DNA from: Thermogemmata fonticola
GTDB lineage: Bacteria; Planctomycetota; Planctomycetia; Gemmatales; Gemmataceae
Direction of reading: 5' to 3'
Assembly (NCBI RefSeq): GCF_013694095.1
Contig: NZ_JACEFB010000009.1
Coordinates: 62,001-126,000 of the forward strand
DNA length: 64,000 bases
Position 1 is the stretch's first letter. Every line of letters begins with the position of its first letter. Below the pieces are notes generated by a model, which did no database searches, was not told where the DNA came from, and was given only the letters and a program-made list of their open reading frames with translations. The position numbers were made by a program, and so were the translations under genes. Shown piece after piece: positions 54,357 to 64,000 of the stretch.

Positions 54357-57300
54357 TCAAGGCCGGGCAGCTTCCAAAGCGTTCCGCACAGGACCCTGGA
54401 TGGGGCTGAGCAGGTTGTTGAGTTCCCGGTAGGACAGTCGGGTGCTCTGCTCGCGGCTGCTTGCCTGGCGGAAGTCATCGGCGGCGCGGTCCCGCTGGCC
54501 GAGCATCCAGTGGGCGGCGCCGAGGTAGTACCACGCGACGGGATCGCTGGGGTCGTGGAGCAGCGCCTGTTCCGCGGCTTGGGCGGCCTGGGGGAAGCGT
54601 CCCTGGCGGTAGGCCTGGATGGCCTGGTGGAGGTGGGAGCGGGCCAGTTGCGGGTTTGTGGGTTGCTCCTGGGGCGGCCGGCGCAGGGGCGCGAGAGGAT
54701 CGTGGACAGCGAGGCGGGCTTGCTCAGCCAGGGCGACCCAGGAACGCTGGGCTTGGCGGGCCGGTTCATAGGCGGGGCTTTGCCGGGCCTGGTCCAGGTG
54801 CGCCAGGGCTTCCGCCGGCTGTTGGGCCAGGACGGCGGCCAGTGCCAGCAGCACGTGGGCCTGCGCCGCTTCCTCCGAGGCGGGATCGGCCCGTTGGAGC
54901 ACTTTGCGGGCGGCTTGTTGGGCGGCGGGAACGTCGGCGGGCCGGCGGGCTTCCGCCAGCAGTTGCAGCCAGAGCTGGAGCAGCTCGGCGTCGCTCGGAG
55001 TCTGGGCCAGCTTCTGCCGCAGGTTCTCCTGCTGCTGTTGGGCCTGACGCAGCTCCGCTTGTAGTTCCTGCTCCCGCTTCTGGGCGGCGGCTTGCAACTG
55101 CTCCCGCAGCCGTTTCTGCTCCGCGGCCGCTTGCTCCTGCAAACTCCGGCGTTCTTTGGCAAAGGCGTCCGCCTGCTGTTGCACCTGCTGTTGCAAGCGC
55201 TGGAGGGCAGCCGTCAGGGTGCGCTTGTCCTCTTGCAGTTGCCGCAGTTGCTGCACGTCCGGCTTGCTGTTAAGCAGGGCGATGGCACGGCGCTGGGCTT
55301 CCAGCAGAGCGGCGGGATCGTACTGATCCGCCAGGAGGCGGGCCGCTTGCAGCTCCTTGGCCAACGCGAGCAGTTGCTGCTGGAACTGCTGCGCCTGCTT
55401 TTCCAGATTCTGCCGTTGTGTGAGGCTGGCTTGCAGTTCCTTGTCCAGCTTTTGCATCTGTTGGCGGACCTGAGCCAGGTCAGCCTCCAGCTTCTTGCGC
55501 TGGTCCCCGGCGTTGCGCAGTTCCTTTTCGACTTCCTCTCGCCGGGCGAGGGCCGTACGCAGGTCGTCCTGCACTTTGGTGAGGTTCTTTTCCAGTTGTT
55601 GCCGCTCGGTTTCCAATTGCTTGCGGGTCTCGGCGGCGGCTTGCAAAGTTCGCTCCACCTGCTGGAGCCGGCTTTGGACCTGCTGGAGTTGCTGGGCGGT
55701 CTGTTGCGCTTGCTGGGCGAGGCGCTGGTTTTCATCATCCTTGAGGCGGGCGGCCTCCTGGGTTTGGTTCAGTTGCTGCTGGGCCTGTTCGAGTTGTTGC
55801 CGGGCTTGGGTCAATTCTGTGGACAGAGCAGTGAGGCGTTGTTCGGCTTCGCGGTTGCGGCTTTCCAGAGCGGCGGTCGGGCCGATGGCGCCCGTGAAGT
55901 AAAGGGCAGCTCCCACTCCGACAGGCAGGGCCAAACCGAGCAGGGTCCCTCCGACCCAAGCTCCGAAGCGGCTGGCGGCGGGAGCAGGGGCCGCTCGGCG
56001 GCGCAGGTCCTCGGCTTCCGGCGGCGGAGCAGCCAGACTGGACGGGATCGGGGCCGCTGCTGGGACCGAGGCGGCCTGAGCTTCGGCGGCGATCTCCTGC
56101 GGTGTAGGACGCGACAGAATCGCCGAACTGCTCGGCTTGATCACCGCGGAGCGCGGACCGGAGGGAACCGCCGGCTCACCGCTGAAGAGATCGGAAGACG
56201 GGGTGGCCACCGGCGCTTCCTCGACGCTCCATTCGATGATGCCGCTGTCGGTCGGCTGGACCGTGGGTTTGGGGCTGGGGTGAGCTGGGGGAGCCGCCGT
56301 CCCGCCGAGCAGCTCCGTGCCTGCTTGGAAATCGAAGTCCGCGTCGAAGATGCTGGAGGGATCGCGCGGCGGAGGCGGAACCGCCGAGAGGATATGCTCC
56401 TGCGGGTCCTCGACGTACATTTCCGGGATGGTCGCTTCCGAGGGGGGCTGACGGCGGACCGGGGATGGCAGAATGTCCGAGGACGCGGCCTTTTCCGCCT
56501 CCTCCAGTTCCTTGGGGACCGGGCCAAGGTCCACGTCGATGTCGAAGCCGGACTCCGTGGACGAACCGGGGCGCAGGGTCCGTCCCACACCGGGGTTGGG
56601 AATGTGGACGGCGGAGGAATGGTGGCCCGGTTGCATCAGGTCCGCCAAAATGTTGGAGGCTTCCGGCATGGGGAGCGGGGCGGCACCGTAATCCGGGGCA
56701 TCCGACGGCGGCTGAAGCTGACCGCTGGAAATGTCCTCAGCCAGTGGCGGAGCGGAAGCGGAACCCGACGGCGGCCGGCGCATTCCCCCCAGGAAGGACA
56801 ACGCGCTGTCCTCTCCTTCCGACCAGGCCGGACGCGCACTGTGGATGTTCGAGCTTTCCGTGCCCGGAGGGGTCAGGAACGGCCCGAAGAGATTGGAGCT
56901 TTCCGCAGCCGGTCCCGGCGGCGGGGCCGAAGCATGGATATCCGAGCTGACTTCCCCACCCGATGGAGCTGCGGCTAAAGAGGCCGCCGAGGCTGTTTCT
57001 TCGTTCCCTGCCAACGGGGGAACAGTTGGGGCAGCGGGAAGCGGTGCCTCGGTTCCTTCCGGCGGTTGGCTCGCCGCAGGGAGATCGACAGCGGGTGGAG
57101 CCACGGCCTGCGGATCGACAGGGCCTTCTGCCCCCAGCTCCACGTCCTCAGCCAGCGGAACTTCTTCGGCTTCCGGCAGCTCACTTCCTGCGGACGAAGA
57201 AGCATCGCGGGACGAAGCCGCAGACGATGGAGGCGAACCGACGAAGCTTTCCGCTCCAGCCGTCCAGGCACTGGTTGGACGAATTGGATGAGCCGAGGCG

Positions 57301-57566
57301 GAAGTTACACTCCCTGGCCCAGGAGGCGGGGCATCCAGGGGGATAGCGGCCTCATCTTCCCAAGCGGAGGCGGCCGGAGGGGATGGCTCCGCGGCCTGAT
57401 CAGCCGGTGGGCCTGCCGTCGCCGCGAAAAGATCGGCTAGCTCCGGGGGCAATTCGCCGGGCGAAGCCGCCGGGAGGAACTCCGGCCCCGTTCCCGCCGT
57501 TGGCTCTGGCTCAGGCTGTCTTTCCGCTTGTCTTTCCGAAGGGGGAACATCGGATGGCTGATTCAT
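54357..57566 (-). CDS. Large membrane protein: Pro/Ala-rich N-terminus, coiled coil, TPR-like C-terminus
   Basis: The 1069-residue product has about 530 residues of Pro/Ala/Ser/Glu-rich low complexity at the N-terminus. One transmembrane helix (about 535-562, VGGTLLGLALPVGVGAALYF) follows, then a very long coiled coil (about 568-855; Gln/Leu/Glu/Arg heptads such as QQLEQAQQQLNQTQEAARLK). A helical TPR-like end (about 860-1060) contains AYRQGRFPQAAQAAEQALLHDPSDPVAWYYLGAAHWML. It is probably a scaffold, with N-terminus and coiled coil on opposite sides of the membrane. The ATG at 57566 has GGAG about 10 bases upstream; the longer frame is not protein-like. It is divergent from a small RHH-like gene. 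No enzyme motif was seen. Confidence 0.8.
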   Translation of the reverse strand: MNQPSDVPPSERQAERQPEPEPTAGTGPEFLPAASPGELPPELADLFAATAGPPADQAAEPSPPAASAWEDEAAIPLDAPPPGPGSVTSASAHPIRPTSAWTAGAESFVGSPPSSAASSRDASSSAGSELPEAEEVPLAEDVELGAEGPVDPQAVAPPAVDLPAASQPPEGTEAPLPAAPTVPPLAGNEETASAASLAAAPSGGEVSSDIHASAPPPGPAAESSNLFGPFLTPPGTESSNIHSARPAWSEGEDSALSFLGGMRRPPSGSASAPPLAEDISSGQLQPPSDAPDYGAAPLPMPEASNILADLMQPGHHSSAVHIPNPGVGRTLRPGSSTESGFDIDVDLGPVPKELEEAEKAASSDILPSPVRRQPPSEATIPEMYVEDPQEHILSAVPPPPRDPSSIFDADFDFQAGTELLGGTAAPPAHPSPKPTVQPTDSGIIEWSVEEAPVATPSSDLFSGEPAVPSGPRSAVIKPSSSAILSRPTPQEIAAEAQAASVPAAAPIPSSLAAPPPEAEDLRRRAAPAPAASRFGAWVGGTLLGLALPVGVGAALYFTGAIGPTAALESRNREAEQRLTALSTELTQARQQLEQAQQQLNQTQEAARLKDDENQRLAQQAQQTAQQLQQVQSRLQQVERTLQAAAETRKQLETERQQLEKNLTKVQDDLRTALARREEVEKELRNAGDQRKKLEADLAQVRQQMQKLDKELQASLTQRQNLEKQAQQFQQQLLALAKELQAARLLADQYDPAALLEAQRRAIALLNSKPDVQQLRQLQEDKRTLTAALQRLQQQVQQQADAFAKERRSLQEQAAAEQKRLREQLQAAAQKREQELQAELRQAQQQQENLRQKLAQTPSDAELLQLWLQLLAEARRPADVPAAQQAARKVLQRADPASEEAAQAHVLLALAAVLAQQPAEALAHLDQARQSPAYEPARQAQRSWVALAEQARLAVHDPLAPLRRPPQEQPTNPQLARSHLHQAIQAYRQGRFPQAAQAAEQALLHDPSDPVAWYYLGAAHWMLGQRDRAADDFRQASSREQSTRLSYRELNNLLSPIQGPVRNALEAARP

Positions 57567-58160
57567 GATCGCTCCACTCCCTGCCCTGACTGATATGGGA
57601 TAATGGTCCGGCTTGGTTCCGCTGCGGAACCGCGGCCTGGCGGAGCTTCCCTGCTTCTGAATCCCGTTCCCGGCCGTCATCCTTCAAGGCGTGCGCCAAG
57701 GGGATTGACTCCATTGTCTGTGCGTGGCTGAGGCGATGCAATGGTTTTTTACCACATTTTCCCCCTCCTTGGTGCTCCTCGTCGGGGAATCGGAAGAATT
57801 GGGACGCGGACTTGTTGGCGGAGGTGAAATTTTGCCGCTTCACTCGCAAAAGCAGGAGGCCGCCGGGGCTGCGGTTTCCCCCTTGCCTGGAAAGCGGGCA
57901 GGGATGCCAACAAGCGCGACAGAAGGAGGAAGACCAACCTTGCCGGTGACTGAAGACGGGGATCGGGATGAGGGACGGCAATCCCGCGTTGGCTCGAAGG
58001 GGAGAAGGTGGAGGGGAAAGTTGGCTCCGAGGCGGCACAGGGTTTGCTCCGATCTTCGGCACGGGCAGGGAAAGCCGCGAGGACCTGGGAGATGTCAGCG
58101 GCTGACCCCTCCTGGCGTGGGGAACGGGGTAGTTGGCCCGCTGGCGGTGAGGATTCGATC
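57567..58160. other. 594-bp divergent intergenic region
   Basis: It lies between the coiled-coil/TPR gene and the small RHH-like gene. It contains a pyrimidine-rich, lower-GC stretch at 57740-57775 and should hold both promoters. A 188-codon frame crossing it has irregular composition and overlaps the better RHH-like frame, so it is not called. Confidence 0.4.
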
Positions 58161-58412: not shown

Positions 58413-59831
58413 TCAGAGGGTTTTCAAGTACTCGATCAAGTCCCAGCGTTGGGATTCGGTCAAAGAGTCGCCGTAGGTATGGCCGGCGTTGCTCCGCCCC
58501 GGCTGGGTGGTGTCGTAGATTTTGCGGCGCTCGATGGGGGGCAAGTTGGGATCAGGGGGTTGGGTCAGTTCGGTGAATTTCCAGCCGACGCGGAGGGTGT
58601 CGTAATCCTCGACCTCGGTGCGGAAGGAGCGGGTAAAGCGGCGGGGGCGCGCGCTGGATTTGAGCACGTGATAGAGCGTCGGGACGCTGCCGTTGTGGAA
58701 ATACGGTGCGGTGGCCCAGATGCCGTCGAGCGGCGGGGCCTGGTAGCCGTCGGTCCAACGCAGGCGCTTGCCCCGGAAGAACCAGCCATCCGCTTCTTGC
58801 CCGAACCAGGAGCGGGAGTAAGCCTCGCCGTAAGCGATGCTGACCGCGGCATGACGCTGGGGATCGGTGCCGATCTCCTCCAGGGGAATGATTTTGTTCG
58901 GGTAGGTCCCGTTCGGGCCGTAGGTGCCGTGGCAGCGGGCACAGTGCTGGCGGAAGATGGCTTCTCCCCGGCGGGCCTTGGCCGAGTCGATGGGGAAGGG
59001 GTACTTGGGCGGCTCCAGGCTCAGCAGGTACTGCTGAATGTCGCGGAAGGCCGGTTCCGCCCGGTGGAAATCCGCGGGAGCGGTCAAGGGGTGCATCATG
59101 AATTGCATGAGGGTGCGCACGCTGCGGCTGTCCATGCCGCCGGTGTAGTAAAGCGTTTGCTTCTTTTTCATCAGCCACCAGGCGGGAACGTCGGCGCAAC
59201 TGTCGTCGCGCAGGCCGAGGTTTTGCCACTGGCTGCGGAGTGTCAGGTCAGGCTGGCGCCAGCCGAGCAGATAGACGCCGAAGGCATCCGCCTCATTCGT
59301 GCCGCGGACATTGCAGAAGGTGAAGGGCAGCTTGACAGGGCGGCCGTCGGCCCGGAACAACTCCTCGAAAAGCGCCTGAATGTCCAGGGTGTGATTCCCC
59401 AATCCGATATAGCTTTGGCCGAAGAGGGAGCTGCCGTGGCAGAGCATGCAGTCGATGGCGATAGCGGGACGGAGGAGAATCTGGCCGCGGCGCAGACCCA
59501 TCGGCAGGCCGTCGTTTGGGTAGGGGGCCGGGTGCAGGCCGTAGCGCTGCCGGAAGGCGGCGGCATAATCGGCGGGTTTTTCCGGCACGCCCCATTGCTG
59601 CCAGGCCCGCTCCACGGAGTGCACGCTCCAGAAACCCGGAACGAAAGCCGTGCGCGTCAACGCCTGGTAGCCCCGCTCCACGGCGGCCTGGCTCTCGGCT
59701 CGCCGGTCGGCGCTGCGCGAATCCTCCCCCGCCACACCGGGCACGGCCAGCCACCACAGTCCAGCGCCCAGCAGCAACACGCCGCTGCCTCCGATTAGGC
59801 TCCCAAGCCGTGGCACTCCTCGCACTCTCAT
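58413..59831 (-). CDS. Di-haem cytochrome c protein
   Basis: The 472-residue product has an export helix (about 10-32, GGSGVLLLGAGLWWLAVPG). It has two haem sites: CMLCH (about residue 125) and CARCH (about 293). Between them it reads like the cytochrome c peroxidase/MauG-type scaffold, with IGLGNHTLDIQALF, DGYQAPPLDGIWATAPYFHNGSVPTLYHVLK (a conserved di-haem-peroxidase-like stretch) and a C-terminal LTESQRWDLIEYLKTL. Electron transfer or peroxidase-like oxidation in the periplasm is likely; the substrate is unknown. The ATG at 59831 is chosen because it precedes the export helix and has GAGGGAGGG about 5 bases upstream. It stands alone. Confidence 0.88.
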   Translation of the reverse strand: MRVRGVPRLGSLIGGSGVLLLGAGLWWLAVPGVAGEDSRSADRRAESQAAVERGYQALTRTAFVPGFWSVHSVERAWQQWGVPEKPADYAAAFRQRYGLHPAPYPNDGLPMGLRRGQILLRPAIAIDCMLCHGSSLFGQSYIGLGNHTLDIQALFEELFRADGRPVKLPFTFCNVRGTNEADAFGVYLLGWRQPDLTLRSQWQNLGLRDDSCADVPAWWLMKKKQTLYYTGGMDSRSVRTLMQFMMHPLTAPADFHRAEPAFRDIQQYLLSLEPPKYPFPIDSAKARRGEAIFRQHCARCHGTYGPNGTYPNKIIPLEEIGTDPQRHAAVSIAYGEAYSRSWFGQEADGWFFRGKRLRWTDGYQAPPLDGIWATAPYFHNGSVPTLYHVLKSSARPRRFTRSFRTEVEDYDTLRVGWKFTELTQPPDPNLPPIERRKIYDTTQPGRSNAGHTYGDSLTESQRWDLIEYLKTL

Positions 59832-60221
59832 ATGGCCCTCCCTCGGAGGCGGGAATGCAGGGGAATCTCCCCGTCTCCCGCGCGAAAATCCTGCTCGGTA
59901 TCTGCCGATTCCCCCTCTTCGGTCCGTGCTCCTTGATCCCTTTTCCCTTCCCCATGGGGAACCGCCCCATTCATCATAATCCCCGCCGAGGGAGTTCTGG
60001 CAATCCTCTTTCGCTGTCCTGGCCGCCGCGGCTGGGAATGAAATCACCAGGGCATCAGCAGAGCGGTGCAAGGGAAAGGACGGAGGCATCTGAAAGGTCG
60101 AAAGCCCAAGCGGGAAGAAGCGGAAAGGGAGAAAGCGGGGTTCAAGATGAGGAGCCAAGCAGGAAGGGCCAGACGAAGGAGCAAGCGGAGTGGGGGAGGT
60201 AGTGGGAGAGACACTCCGGCG
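59832..60221. other. Intergenic, no gene seen
   Basis: This 390-bp stretch lies between the wall-hydrolase-like stop and the cytochrome start on the minus strand, so it should hold the cytochrome promoter. The 11-base word CACTCCGGCGT at 60212 is a near copy of the adjoining end of the 60222 gene (CACTCCGGCAG). Nothing else was recognised. Confidence 0.4.
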
Positions 60222-61859
60222 TCACTCCGGCAGGACGAAGGGGCTGAGGCGTCCGAAGCGATCGAGCACGGCCACGGCGGGGGCGGCCTCGCCTTCCAGG
60301 GGCAGATGGAGGGGCTGCTGCGGCTCGGAGGGGGGCGGGAGCAGGCGCGTGGTCCAGCCGCGGGCGGTGCGGTGGCGCAGGACCAGGAAACGGGTGTCGC
60401 GCGGGGGGTCGATGCGGAGCACGGGAGGCTGCTGCTGGCGGAGAAGCTGGCAGCGGGGGGGAGGAAGCTGAGTCAGTCCCAGGGGCAGGGGCGGAGCGCT
60501 CCAGTCGATGGCGGGCACCAGGGCCGCCTCGGCGTAGAGGCGGTGCAGGTGGTCGGCCAGCCGGTCCGGGTTGTCCCGCAGCGCCTTGATGCTGAAGTGG
60601 ATGGCCCCGCTGGCTCCCCGCTGCTGGCGGATCAACGCGATCTGTTCGGCGATTTCCTGAGCGGGCCAGCCCTTGGGTCCGTTCTCGCTTGGGCGTTCCC
60701 GCACGCGGCTGGTGTACAGTCCCGGCCAGAGATGGCGGCGCTGGGTGTTCTGCTCGGCCCACCAGGCTAACAGTTTGGGAAAACTCTGCCGCGGCTGCGC
60801 GATCGGCCAGTAGAGCTGCGGGGCGAGATAGTCGCACCAGCCTTCCTGGAACCAGAGGCGGGCGTCGGCATACAGCTCGGCAAACGCATCCAGCCCCGTG
60901 ATGCCCGGCGGGTGATTGGGCCGCCAGATGCCAAAGGGGCTGATCCCGACTTTGACCCACGGCTTGAGGGCTTTGACTTCCCGGTAGAGGTCCCGGACAA
61001 AGGCGTTGATGGCGGCCCGCCGCCAGTCGTCCCGCCCCAGTGTTCCCCCCGCTTGGCGGTACTTTTGCCAGGTATCCTCGTCGGGAAAGAGCAGGAGTTG
61101 GCCGTCCGGGCCGCGCTCGCGGTAGGGGTAAAAGTAATCGTCAATGTGGACGCCGTCGATGTCGTAGCGCCGCACCACATCCCGAATGACGGCCAACGTG
61201 TGCGCTGCCACCTCCGGATGCGTCGGGTTCATCCACTGATGGGTCCCGTAAGTTTTGATCCACTCCGGCCGGCGGCGGATGAGATGCTTGTCGCTGATGG
61301 GAGAGCGGGAGGACGGGTGGCGGGCGCGATAGGGATTGAACCAGGCGTGCAATTCCAGCCCGCGGGCATGAGCGGCCGTGATGGCGAAAGCCAGGGGATC
61401 GTAACCGGGGGATTGGCCCATGCGCCCCGTGAGGAATTCGCTCCAGGGTTCGAGAGCGGATTCATACAGGGCATCGGCCATGGGGCGCACCTGGAAGATG
61501 ACGGCGTTGAGGCGCAGCTCGGCGGCACGGTCCAGCAGAGCGAGCAGCTCTTGCTTCTGTTGCTCGGCGGTCAGGCCGGGCCGGCTCGGCCAGTCGATGT
61601 TGGCCACCGTGGCGATCCACACGCCGCGGAACTCCCGCGGCGGCGGAGGCACTTCCGCGGCGTCCGCAGCGGCAGCCATCGGCTCCGACGCCGAGGTTCC
61701 CCTTCCTGCGGGGAGGCGAGCTATCTCGGAACCGATCGTGGCAGCAGCGGTTCCCAGACAGGCGCTCAGCCAACCAGCGGCCAGGAGACTTGCGGCCAGT
61801 GGGAGGAAGGCCAGGGGTAAGCGGGATGGCAGGCGGCGGCGAGGAGCGGGGGCGGGCAT
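60222..61859 (-). CDS. DUF187/GHL10-type glycoside hydrolase lipoprotein
   Basis: The 545-residue product has a lipoprotein signal with lipobox LSAC (Cys34). A family TIM barrel follows (about 75-420): REFRGVWIATVANIDWPSR, AELRLNAVIFQVRPMADALYES, GLELHAWFNPYRA, YDIDGVHIDDYFYPY (the Asp pair typical of the catalytic site) and WVKVGISPFGIWRPN. A C-terminal beta domain (about 450-545) completes it. This is the YngK/DigH group, whose E. coli member hydrolyses peptidoglycan glycans lacking peptides. GGAG lies 6 bases before the ATG. It is the last gene of a probable operon after the MurQ-kinase fusion (117 bp gap), which fits release of wall sugars at the membrane. Confidence 0.9.
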   Translation of the reverse strand: MPAPAPRRRLPSRLPLAFLPLAASLLAAGWLSACLGTAAATIGSEIARLPAGRGTSASEPMAAAADAAEVPPPPREFRGVWIATVANIDWPSRPGLTAEQQKQELLALLDRAAELRLNAVIFQVRPMADALYESALEPWSEFLTGRMGQSPGYDPLAFAITAAHARGLELHAWFNPYRARHPSSRSPISDKHLIRRRPEWIKTYGTHQWMNPTHPEVAAHTLAVIRDVVRRYDIDGVHIDDYFYPYRERGPDGQLLLFPDEDTWQKYRQAGGTLGRDDWRRAAINAFVRDLYREVKALKPWVKVGISPFGIWRPNHPPGITGLDAFAELYADARLWFQEGWCDYLAPQLYWPIAQPRQSFPKLLAWWAEQNTQRRHLWPGLYTSRVRERPSENGPKGWPAQEIAEQIALIRQQRGASGAIHFSIKALRDNPDRLADHLHRLYAEAALVPAIDWSAPPLPLGLTQLPPPRCQLLRQQQPPVLRIDPPRDTRFLVLRHRTARGWTTRLLPPPSEPQQPLHLPLEGEAAPAVAVLDRFGRLSPFVLPE

Positions 61860-61976
61860 GGGTGCTCCGAAAGCGTGGTGGAGGGAGGGCAGGTTCGAGT
61901 CGGTCCGTTTCCGCTGGGACCGGTCGATTCCGCTAGGACAGACCCGTTCCGCGGGGGCCAGCGCTGATATTTGATG

Positions 61977-63845
61977 TTAGGAAAGGGGTGGGGCGTTGGA
62001 CACGGAAATGGCCAGGCGGTAGGCGCGACGCAAGGCGCCCAGGGCCGGCTCCGAGACGCGGGTGAGAGGATGGGCCTGGTAGCCGCGTTCTGCCAGGGCA
62101 TGGAGGAAGCGATCGCGGTAGAGGCGGGAACCGAGGAATAAACCGCCGGCCAGGGCCAGCGGCACCGTAGAGGGCAAAGCGACGCGTGCCGCAGCAGTGG
62201 CAGCGATGGCGGCTAGCTCGGCGGCTCCCTCCTGGACCAGGCGATCCGCGACAGCATCGCGGCTGGCACAGTCCAGCACCACGGGCGCCAGGGCGGCCAG
62301 AGCGGCTCGATCCGCCCGGCCATAGACATATTCGATCAGTTCCTCTGGCTGGGTCAGGCCGCAGGCGGCCAGGAGGCGCTCCGTGAGCAAGGTGGCCGGG
62401 GCGCGGCCATCCGCCGCACGCAGCACGGCGCGCAGGGCAGCCTGGACCAGAGCGTAGCCGCTCCCTTCGTCTCCCAGCAGCCAGCCCCACCCGCCGGCGC
62501 GCGCGGTCTCCCCGGCCGCATTCTGAGCGAAGGCCATCGAACCGGTCCCCGCGATCACTGCCAGTCCCCAGCCTTCGGGCGTTCCGGCAGCCAGAGGGAG
62601 CACAGCATCCTCGACGACTTCCACCGCGGAAGTGCCCAAGCGCTGCTCCGCCCATTCCCGCACCAGGCGTTGTTCCGCACTCCGGCCCGCGCCGGCCAAG
62701 CCGAAACAGGCTGCCCGTACTGTCATCCCGGAGACACCGGCAGCAGCCAACGCCTCGCGCAGGGCCAGGTCCAGGGCCGCCAGTGCCGCCGAGACTCCCG
62801 CCGCGCGCAGATTGCTGGAACCGGCGGTGCCTCGCCCCAGAACTTCCCACCCGTTCCCCGCGGTTGGGAGCCGGGCGAGCAGGGCCGTGGTCTGGGTCCC
62901 GCCGCCATCGACGCCTAAGATCCACGGGCCGCCCTCGTGAACCGCACGACTCCGCGGCAGGCCGCTCAAAGCGGCGCGCACCCGCCCGCGTGCCTGACGC
63001 AGCCGTTCCCGCGCCGTCTCCACATCGAAGCCGCCCAGGTGCGCCACCAGGGCCGTCTTGACCTCCCCGCCGCAACGCTCCAGCAGCTCCGCCGCTGCCT
63101 CCCGGCTCAGACCCGTCACCTCCCGCACGATCCGATTGGCCCGCCAGCGCAGCTTCTCATTCGTCGCTTTCAGGTCCACCATGAGATGCCCGTAGGTCTT
63201 GCCCAGGCGGACCATCGCCCCGGTGGAAAGCATGTTCAAAACCAGCTTGGTCGCCGTGCCTGCCTTCAGACGGGTGGAACCACTGAGCACTTCGGGACCC
63301 ACGACGGGGATGATGGCCAGGTCCACCAGCGGGATGAGTTCAGCGTCGCTATTGCAGGCCAGGCCGATGGTGAAGGCGCCGCAGCGCCGGGCATAATGCA
63401 GACCGCCGAGAACATACGGCGTGCGCCCGCTGGTGGCGATCCCCACCACCACGTCCTGCGCGCTCAGGTGCAAGCGCTGCAAATCCTGCTCTGCCGCTTC
63501 CGGATGGTCCTCCGCCCCTTCCACTGCACGGGTCAACGCCTCGACACCTCCCGCGATGACGCCGACGACCATCTCCGGCGGGGTCTGAAATGTCGGCGGC
63601 ATCTCCGTGGCGTCCAGCACGCCCAAACGGCCCGAAGTTCCCGCGCCCAGGTAAATCAATCGGCCGCCCCGTTCCAGCCGCTCGGCGATCACGGCAATCC
63701 CCTGGGCGATGGCCGGAGCTTGCGTGGCCACCGCTGGCGCGACGCGCGCATCCTCGGCGTTCATCAGCCGCACGATTTCCAACGGCGTCATCTCATCGAG
63801 GTGGGCCGAGGCGGCCAGGCGGCCTTCCGTTTGCAGATGATCCAT
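61977..63845 (-). CDS. MurNAc-6-phosphate etherase fused to an N-acetyl-hexosamine kinase
   Basis: The 622-residue product joins two enzymes. Residues 1-300 are MurQ: YLGAGTSGRLGVLDATEMPP (about 64-83, SIS sugar-phosphate loop), VEGAEDHPEAAEQDL with the catalytic-type Glu, and LVLNMLSTGAMVRLGK. Residues about 305-622 are a BadF/BadG-type kinase: LGVDGGGTQTTALLA (ATP loop), AGTGSMAF, GGWGWLLGDEGSGYAL and LAGGLFLGSRLY. MurQ cleaves MurNAc-6-P to GlcNAc-6-P and D-lactate; the kinase part is of the type that phosphorylates GlcNAc and/or MurNAc. Separate proteins are about 300 and 300-330 residues, so both halves look complete. It lies 39 bp after a truncated transporter gene. AGGA lies 9 bases before the ATG. 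Confidence 0.93.
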   Translation of the reverse strand: MDHLQTEGRLAASAHLDEMTPLEIVRLMNAEDARVAPAVATQAPAIAQGIAVIAERLERGGRLIYLGAGTSGRLGVLDATEMPPTFQTPPEMVVGVIAGGVEALTRAVEGAEDHPEAAEQDLQRLHLSAQDVVVGIATSGRTPYVLGGLHYARRCGAFTIGLACNSDAELIPLVDLAIIPVVGPEVLSGSTRLKAGTATKLVLNMLSTGAMVRLGKTYGHLMVDLKATNEKLRWRANRIVREVTGLSREAAAELLERCGGEVKTALVAHLGGFDVETARERLRQARGRVRAALSGLPRSRAVHEGGPWILGVDGGGTQTTALLARLPTAGNGWEVLGRGTAGSSNLRAAGVSAALAALDLALREALAAAGVSGMTVRAACFGLAGAGRSAEQRLVREWAEQRLGTSAVEVVEDAVLPLAAGTPEGWGLAVIAGTGSMAFAQNAAGETARAGGWGWLLGDEGSGYALVQAALRAVLRAADGRAPATLLTERLLAACGLTQPEELIEYVYGRADRAALAALAPVVLDCASRDAVADRLVQEGAAELAAIAATAAARVALPSTVPLALAGGLFLGSRLYRDRFLHALAERGYQAHPLTRVSEPALGALRRAYRLAISVSNAPPLS

Positions 63846-63884
63846 AGCTCACGTTCCTGAATCCGTCCGACTCTGGTAGGGACT

Positions 63885-64000
63885 TCAGTGCCGCGGCGCC
63901 GGCCGAGGGTTTCCCCAGCGGTCAGCCAGCAAAGCCACAGCGACGGTGGTGAGCGTGCCCAGGGGCGCCCACCAGGGCCAGGCGAGCGTGGTGGACCACC
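63885..64000 (-). CDS. C-terminal end of a membrane transporter, probably a sodium:solute symporter (truncated by window)
   Basis: Only the last 38 residues are in the window: a hydrophobic stretch (TLAWPWWAPLGTLTTVAVAL) followed by LADRWGNP and a short basic tail ending in RH. The pattern of Trp/Pro before a final helix recalls the last helix of sodium:solute symporters, and the codon use is normal. It stops 39 bp upstream of the MurQ fusion on the same strand, suggesting an operon in which it imports an amino sugar. The family call needs the rest of the gene. Confidence 0.5.
   Translation of the reverse strand, partial: WSTTLAWPWWAPLGTLTTVAVALLADRWGNPRPAPRH

Follow-up and report, generated by a model that had tools for sequence, protein, structure and literature searches.

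Why would a planctomycete without the canonical genes for making peptidoglycan carry what is very probably an operon for consuming N-acetylmuramic acid (MurNAc)? The question is raised by a stretch of 64,000 nucleotides of Thermogemmata fonticola (positions 62001-126000 of contig NZ_JACEFB010000009.1, G000:C9), referred to here as the window. It belongs to a planctomycete genome of 4.81 Mb that is 97% complete, which was searched family by family. At the end of the window, on the minus strand, a sodium:solute symporter (SSS) gene is followed by a gene that fuses the etherase MurQ to a kinase and then by a gene of the GHL10 family. We consider it probable that these genes constitute a MurNAc catabolic operon of the murTKQ kind, and that other bacteria are the source of the sugar, which serves as carbon and nitrogen. 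The direct observations behind this reading are the identities of the genes, their synteny, active-site residues that are intact, and the absence of MurA, MraY, MurC-F and penicillin-binding protein (PBP) genes.

The fusion gene and its neighbors

The fusion gene (61977-63845, minus strand; 622 aa) was recognized from family profiles and from homologous fusions in other Gemmataceae. Its MurQ domain (residues 1-294; 62964-63845) scores 375 bits with TIGR00274 over residues 4-293, above the equivalog cut-off of 302, and in an AlphaFold2 monomer model of the fusion (88 sequences; mean pLDDT 94.5, pTM 0.76) it matches solved MurQ structures (4lzj, Z 39.1; 4s12, rmsd 1.4 Å). By alignment column counts, the glutamates E81 and E109 are each conserved in 53/54 sequences and E112 in 54/54, and S139 and S190 are likewise conserved. 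We take E81 and E109/E112 to be the counterparts of E83/E114 of E. coli MurQ. Profile score, structure match and conservation all indicate that this half is a MurNAc-6-phosphate etherase with intact active-site residues. A short linker (residues 295-306; 62928-62963) leads to the kinase domain (residues 307-615; 62001-62927), assigned to the MurK/NagK type from its match to PF01869 (BcrAD_BadFG; 121 bits, residues 310-605), its structure match and its conservation. The ASKHA motifs DGGGTxT and GTGS are present, the catalytic D413 is conserved in 60/60 sequences, and conservation analysis also marks D313, T319, T434, G451-G452-W453 and D459.

Of the symporter gene, only the final 116 nt (63885-64000, minus strand) fall within the window. 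Reading the contig past the window edge gave the whole gene (C9:125885-127354), which encodes a sodium:solute symporter of 489 aa (PF00474, 127 bits, cut-off 22.8; TIGR00813, 211 bits, cut-off 184) whose best solved structure is 5nv9, a putative sodium:solute symporter. The transporter that the original prediction had proposed is thereby confirmed. Downstream of the fusion, the GHL10 gene (60222-61859, minus strand) encodes a 545-aa, presumably exported protein with a catalytic domain at residues 76-388 (PF02638, 250 bits, cut-off 27.9). Its sequence reads as having an N-terminal hydrophobic signal region with an LSAC lipobox; among the orthologs that were inspected, a signal peptide is present but the lipobox cysteine is missing, so that of the proposed "GHL10 lipoprotein" the family stands and the lipoprotein part is weak. 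DigH of E. coli belongs to the GHL10 family. The DigH/YngK-like label needs correction in that the closest solved relative is Cwp19 of C. difficile (5oq2, E 1e-84), which was shown to act as a lytic transglycosylase that also yields some products of hydrolysis (PMC6016235).

The three genes are separated by 39 bp (symporter to fusion) and 117 bp (fusion to GHL10). A minus-strand scan found no terminator in either gap, with terminator matches elsewhere above chance, and a promoter scan gave no signal exceeding chance. Because the gaps are short and contain no terminator-like site, the arrangement fits a single transcript. In a survey of 59 genomes (the source genome and its relatives, 37 of them Gemmataceae), the SSS-fusion-GHL10 order was seen at about ten Gemmataceae-type loci, and at some of these the symporter stop overlaps the MurQ start. 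Family scores, gaps and gene order thus bear out the predicted row of three genes on one strand, with its identities and coordinates, and the row appears to be one real and conserved operon.

The substrates, the direction of flux and the source of the sugar, as we infer them, would be as follows. The exported GHL10 enzyme would cut denuded glycan strands, either by hydrolysis like DigH, a hydrolase of denuded glycans according to PMC12288456, or by lytic transglycosylation like Cwp19. The symporter would take up free MurNAc along with sodium, the kinase half would convert MurNAc and ATP to MurNAc-6-phosphate, and the MurQ half would remove D-lactate to give N-acetylglucosamine-6-phosphate (GlcNAc-6-phosphate). 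Enzymes encoded elsewhere, namely two NagA-like proteins that fall under the NagA cut-off (C24, C1) and a NagB-PIG-L protein that exceeds the NagB cut-off (C8), would carry GlcNAc-6-phosphate to fructose-6-phosphate, and AnmK (C6) would feed anhydroMurNAc into the same pool. Since Cwp19 is a lytic transglycosylase, the GHL10 products may carry anhydroMurNAc ends that need AnmK; the chemistry of the GHL10 enzyme decides which of the two, the kinase half or AnmK, its products would pass through. With these genes present elsewhere in the genome, the predicted route from MurNAc to GlcNAc-6-phosphate is supported, as are the predicted gene identities and operon structure. The MurNAc itself would come from other bacteria, as debris, neighbors or prey.

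Origin of the MurNAc

Does the organism have a wall of its own to recycle? MurA, MraY, MurC-F and a penicillin-binding transpeptidase were not found in the source genome, where the sole matches to the first two are AroA (404 bits to aroA) and a WecA-type transferase, and the single Mur-ligase match is FolC (367 bits). Among the 37 Gemmataceae, MraY, a full Mur ligase set and a convincing transpeptidase each occur in 0/37 genomes; a partial transpeptidase match of 24.5 bits in one of them (G025) was not taken as a PBP. MraY above cut-off and a strong transpeptidase match coincide in the same 5/59 genomes (G045, G048, G050, G054, G058), none of which is from the Gemmataceae. Gene loss in this family was already known (Mahajan 2020a and Wiegand 2020, as cited in PMC8567305), and the new part is that an apparently complete MurNAc-using operon persists despite the loss of the wall synthesis genes. 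Because the genome is without canonical peptidoglycan synthesis genes, feeding on other bacteria, which had been proposed as an alternative to recycling of the organism's own wall, is the best reading of where the MurNAc comes from. We also noted Mur-ligase-domain open reading frames of ~870-990 codons, possibly cyanophycin-synthetase-like, in G008, G017, G018, G021, G036 and other Gemmataceae.

Several points weigh against the proposed function of the operon. In Gemmata obscuriglobus, Jeske et al. detected MurNAc, GlcNAc, diaminopimelic acid (DAP) and sacculi that are sensitive to lysozyme (PMC4432640), and a wall may be built by unrecognized genes. GH3/NagZ (PF00933) is absent from 13/13 planctomycete genomes, with a match in 10/14 control genomes, and Amidase_3 was not found, which leaves the release of MurNAc from GlcNAc and from peptides without an assigned enzyme. 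GlcNAc could be the main substrate of the kinase, whose preference is not readable from sequence, and the same genome encodes an unfused kinase paralog that is 48% identical to the kinase half. As a marker of wall metabolism, Amidase_3 proved uninformative, as it is missing even from relatives with MraY and PBPs.

That peptidoglycan was detected biochemically in G. obscuriglobus would suit an operon that recycles the organism's own wall, as would the finding that 4/5 relatives keeping MraY and transpeptidases also have MurQ. However, MurQ occurs in 24/59 genomes and 20 of these 24 are without MraY, the synthesis genes are missing here and throughout the sampled Gemmataceae, and GH3/NagZ, which was not found, is a component of the usual recycling route. 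We therefore regard own-wall recycling as unlikely and, given the absent synthesis genes, reject it as the main function. A return of MurNAc to wall precursors, as in Tannerella forsythia, is also rejected, with MurC-F and MraY missing.

Substrate of the kinase half

If MurNAc is taken from other bacteria, is it what the kinase half phosphorylates? The nearest solved structure is C. acetobutylicum MurK (8zo3, Z 36.1), a stand-alone enzyme that phosphorylates both MurNAc and GlcNAc; MurNAc-bound Tannerella MurK (Tf_MurK) is a weaker structural match. The Tf_MurK pocket residues that make space for the lactyl group have been described (PMC10465942). In the fusion, Gly451-Gly452-Trp453 aligns with Tf_MurK S133-P134-L135, and the same Gly-Gly-Trp pocket motif is found in C. 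acetobutylicum MurK and human NagK. Glu412, which precedes the catalytic Asp, sits at the Tf_MurK T94 position, which is highly variable among relatives and is Asn in C. acetobutylicum MurK. The kinase half thus appears to be of the amino-sugar kinase type on which the original prediction depended. The sequence would allow MurNAc as its substrate, and the argument for MurNAc comes from gene context.

That context also bears on the possibility that the fusion mainly serves a route for GlcNAc, chitin-derived or as a generic amino sugar, with the MurQ half used only if MurNAc is present. The kinase motifs resemble those of human NagK as well as those of the dual-specificity C. acetobutylicum MurK, and the top NCBIfam match is a NagK model, though at 98 bits it is far under the cut-off of 370. 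Against this, the kinase is either fused to MurQ or encoded next to it in various planctomycete families, AnmK adjoins the unfused kinase-MurQ pair in G056, a GHL10 peptidoglycan enzyme is next in the operon, and the separate paralogous kinase could handle GlcNAc, so a primary GlcNAc function seems to us improbable. The paralog is a stand-alone kinase (L034 9632-10567; G000:C2:152632-153567) that groups in the tree with Gemmataceae fused kinases, which suggests a copy derived from them; in G016 and G020, the related kinase has AnmK as its neighbor. Although the eukaryotic glucokinase regulatory protein (GKRP) is a MurQ relative and GKRP profiles and structures match the MurQ half, it is very improbable that this half regulates the kinase in the manner of GKRP and is no etherase, because it passes the MurQ equivalog cut-off, it retains the conserved glutamates and serines, and its unfused neighbors are ordinary MurQ.

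Evolution of the fusion and known counterparts

All 14 of the surveyed Gemmataceae with MurQ, including the source genome, have it fused to the kinase. Because the same proteins are encoded by separate adjacent genes in most other planctomycete families, usually with a divergent symporter, the fusion appears to join an ancestral murQ-kinase pair; fusions also occur in a few lineages outside the Gemmataceae. On quick trees of each half, which have long branches, the fused or separate state requires 9 changes for the kinase and 7 for MurQ by parsimony, of which well-supported branches force only 2 and 1, respectively. A single origin is disfavored by these counts, and repeated fusion or splitting is likely, if not firmly shown. 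In a sample of the phylum, 199/280 good genomes match the fusion query, mostly via MurQ. We found no described MurQ-kinase fusion or planctomycete MurQ in a literature search that missed most subscription journals.

What might the fusion achieve? It had been suggested to channel MurNAc through both halves. Because linker residues 299-304 are predicted to be disordered (pLDDT <50 in the monomer model), there is no indication of a fixed channel. Sister families manage the same task with two genes that lie side by side without being fused; channeling is thus unsupported. The fusion may link two enzymes that act in sequence and need not form a channel.

Some observations concern the database records and the surrounding sequence. 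JAIXLE010000137.1 (L062, from the Gemmataceae genome G020) is titled "Bacteroidales bacterium" but has a Gemmataceae-type operon, and is probably a mislabeled metagenome-assembled genome. Two contigs titled "Candidatus Kuenenia stuttgartiensis" (L073, L094) carry Planctomycetia-like MurQ and kinase genes and are likely binning errors. In the window, the next gene downstream of the GHL10 gene (58413-60158, minus strand) encodes a protein with two kinds of cytochrome c domain, one RoxA-like and one of the cbb3 type. Further on, a gene on the same strand (54357-57680) encodes a protein of 1107 aa. Its N-terminal half is rich in Pro, Ala and Ser, its C-terminal part has TPR repeats, and it also contains a long, Gln-rich stretch that resembles a coiled coil.

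Among known systems, the nearest is murTKQ of T. forsythia (PMC5790795, PMC10465942), in which an SSS-superfamily transporter, a BcrAD/BadFG MurNAc kinase and MurQ are encoded together, as they appear to be here. The Tannerella transporter and kinase restore growth of E. coli on MurNAc (PMC5790795), and Tannerella is without MurA/MurB (PMC7670621). In Tannerella, the kinase and the etherase are two distinct proteins, and MurNAc serves cell-wall synthesis as well, whereas here a single protein contains both, the operon has a GHL10 enzyme in addition, and the downstream wall synthesis genes are absent. The MurQ proteins of H. influenzae and Y. enterocolitica (4lzj, 4s12, 1nri) are ~50-55% identical across the whole etherase (rmsd 1.3-2.0 Å) but stand alone, and enterobacterial MurQ is supplied by a phosphorylating phosphotransferase system (MurP) and needs no kinase, unlike the etherase here. 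Cwp19 and DigH use a GHL10 catalytic domain on peptidoglycan glycan strands, as the GHL10 protein here probably does. However, Cwp19 carries repeats that bind the cell wall and DigH functions in the separation of daughter cells, while the enzyme here lies within a sugar-uptake operon. The gene content is therefore of a known kind; what is new is that kinase and etherase are fused, that a GHL10 gene is added and that the operon occurs in a lineage without canonical wall synthesis.

The peptidoglycan of Gemmata-like planctomycetes is disputed, as their genomes miss genes although sugars and sacculi of the wall have been reported. In a genome that is without the canonical route of wall synthesis, an operon for MurNAc use separates the eating of MurNAc from the making of it, and the fusion would offer its conversion to GlcNAc-6-phosphate by one protein. 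More tentatively, and with slightly less confidence than doubt, we suggest that planctomycetes without peptidoglycan synthesis live partly on foreign walls by means of the fused kinase-etherase, in which case some of the reported MurNAc could be foreign. The operon is a candidate marker of peptidoglycan scavenging in environmental genomes.

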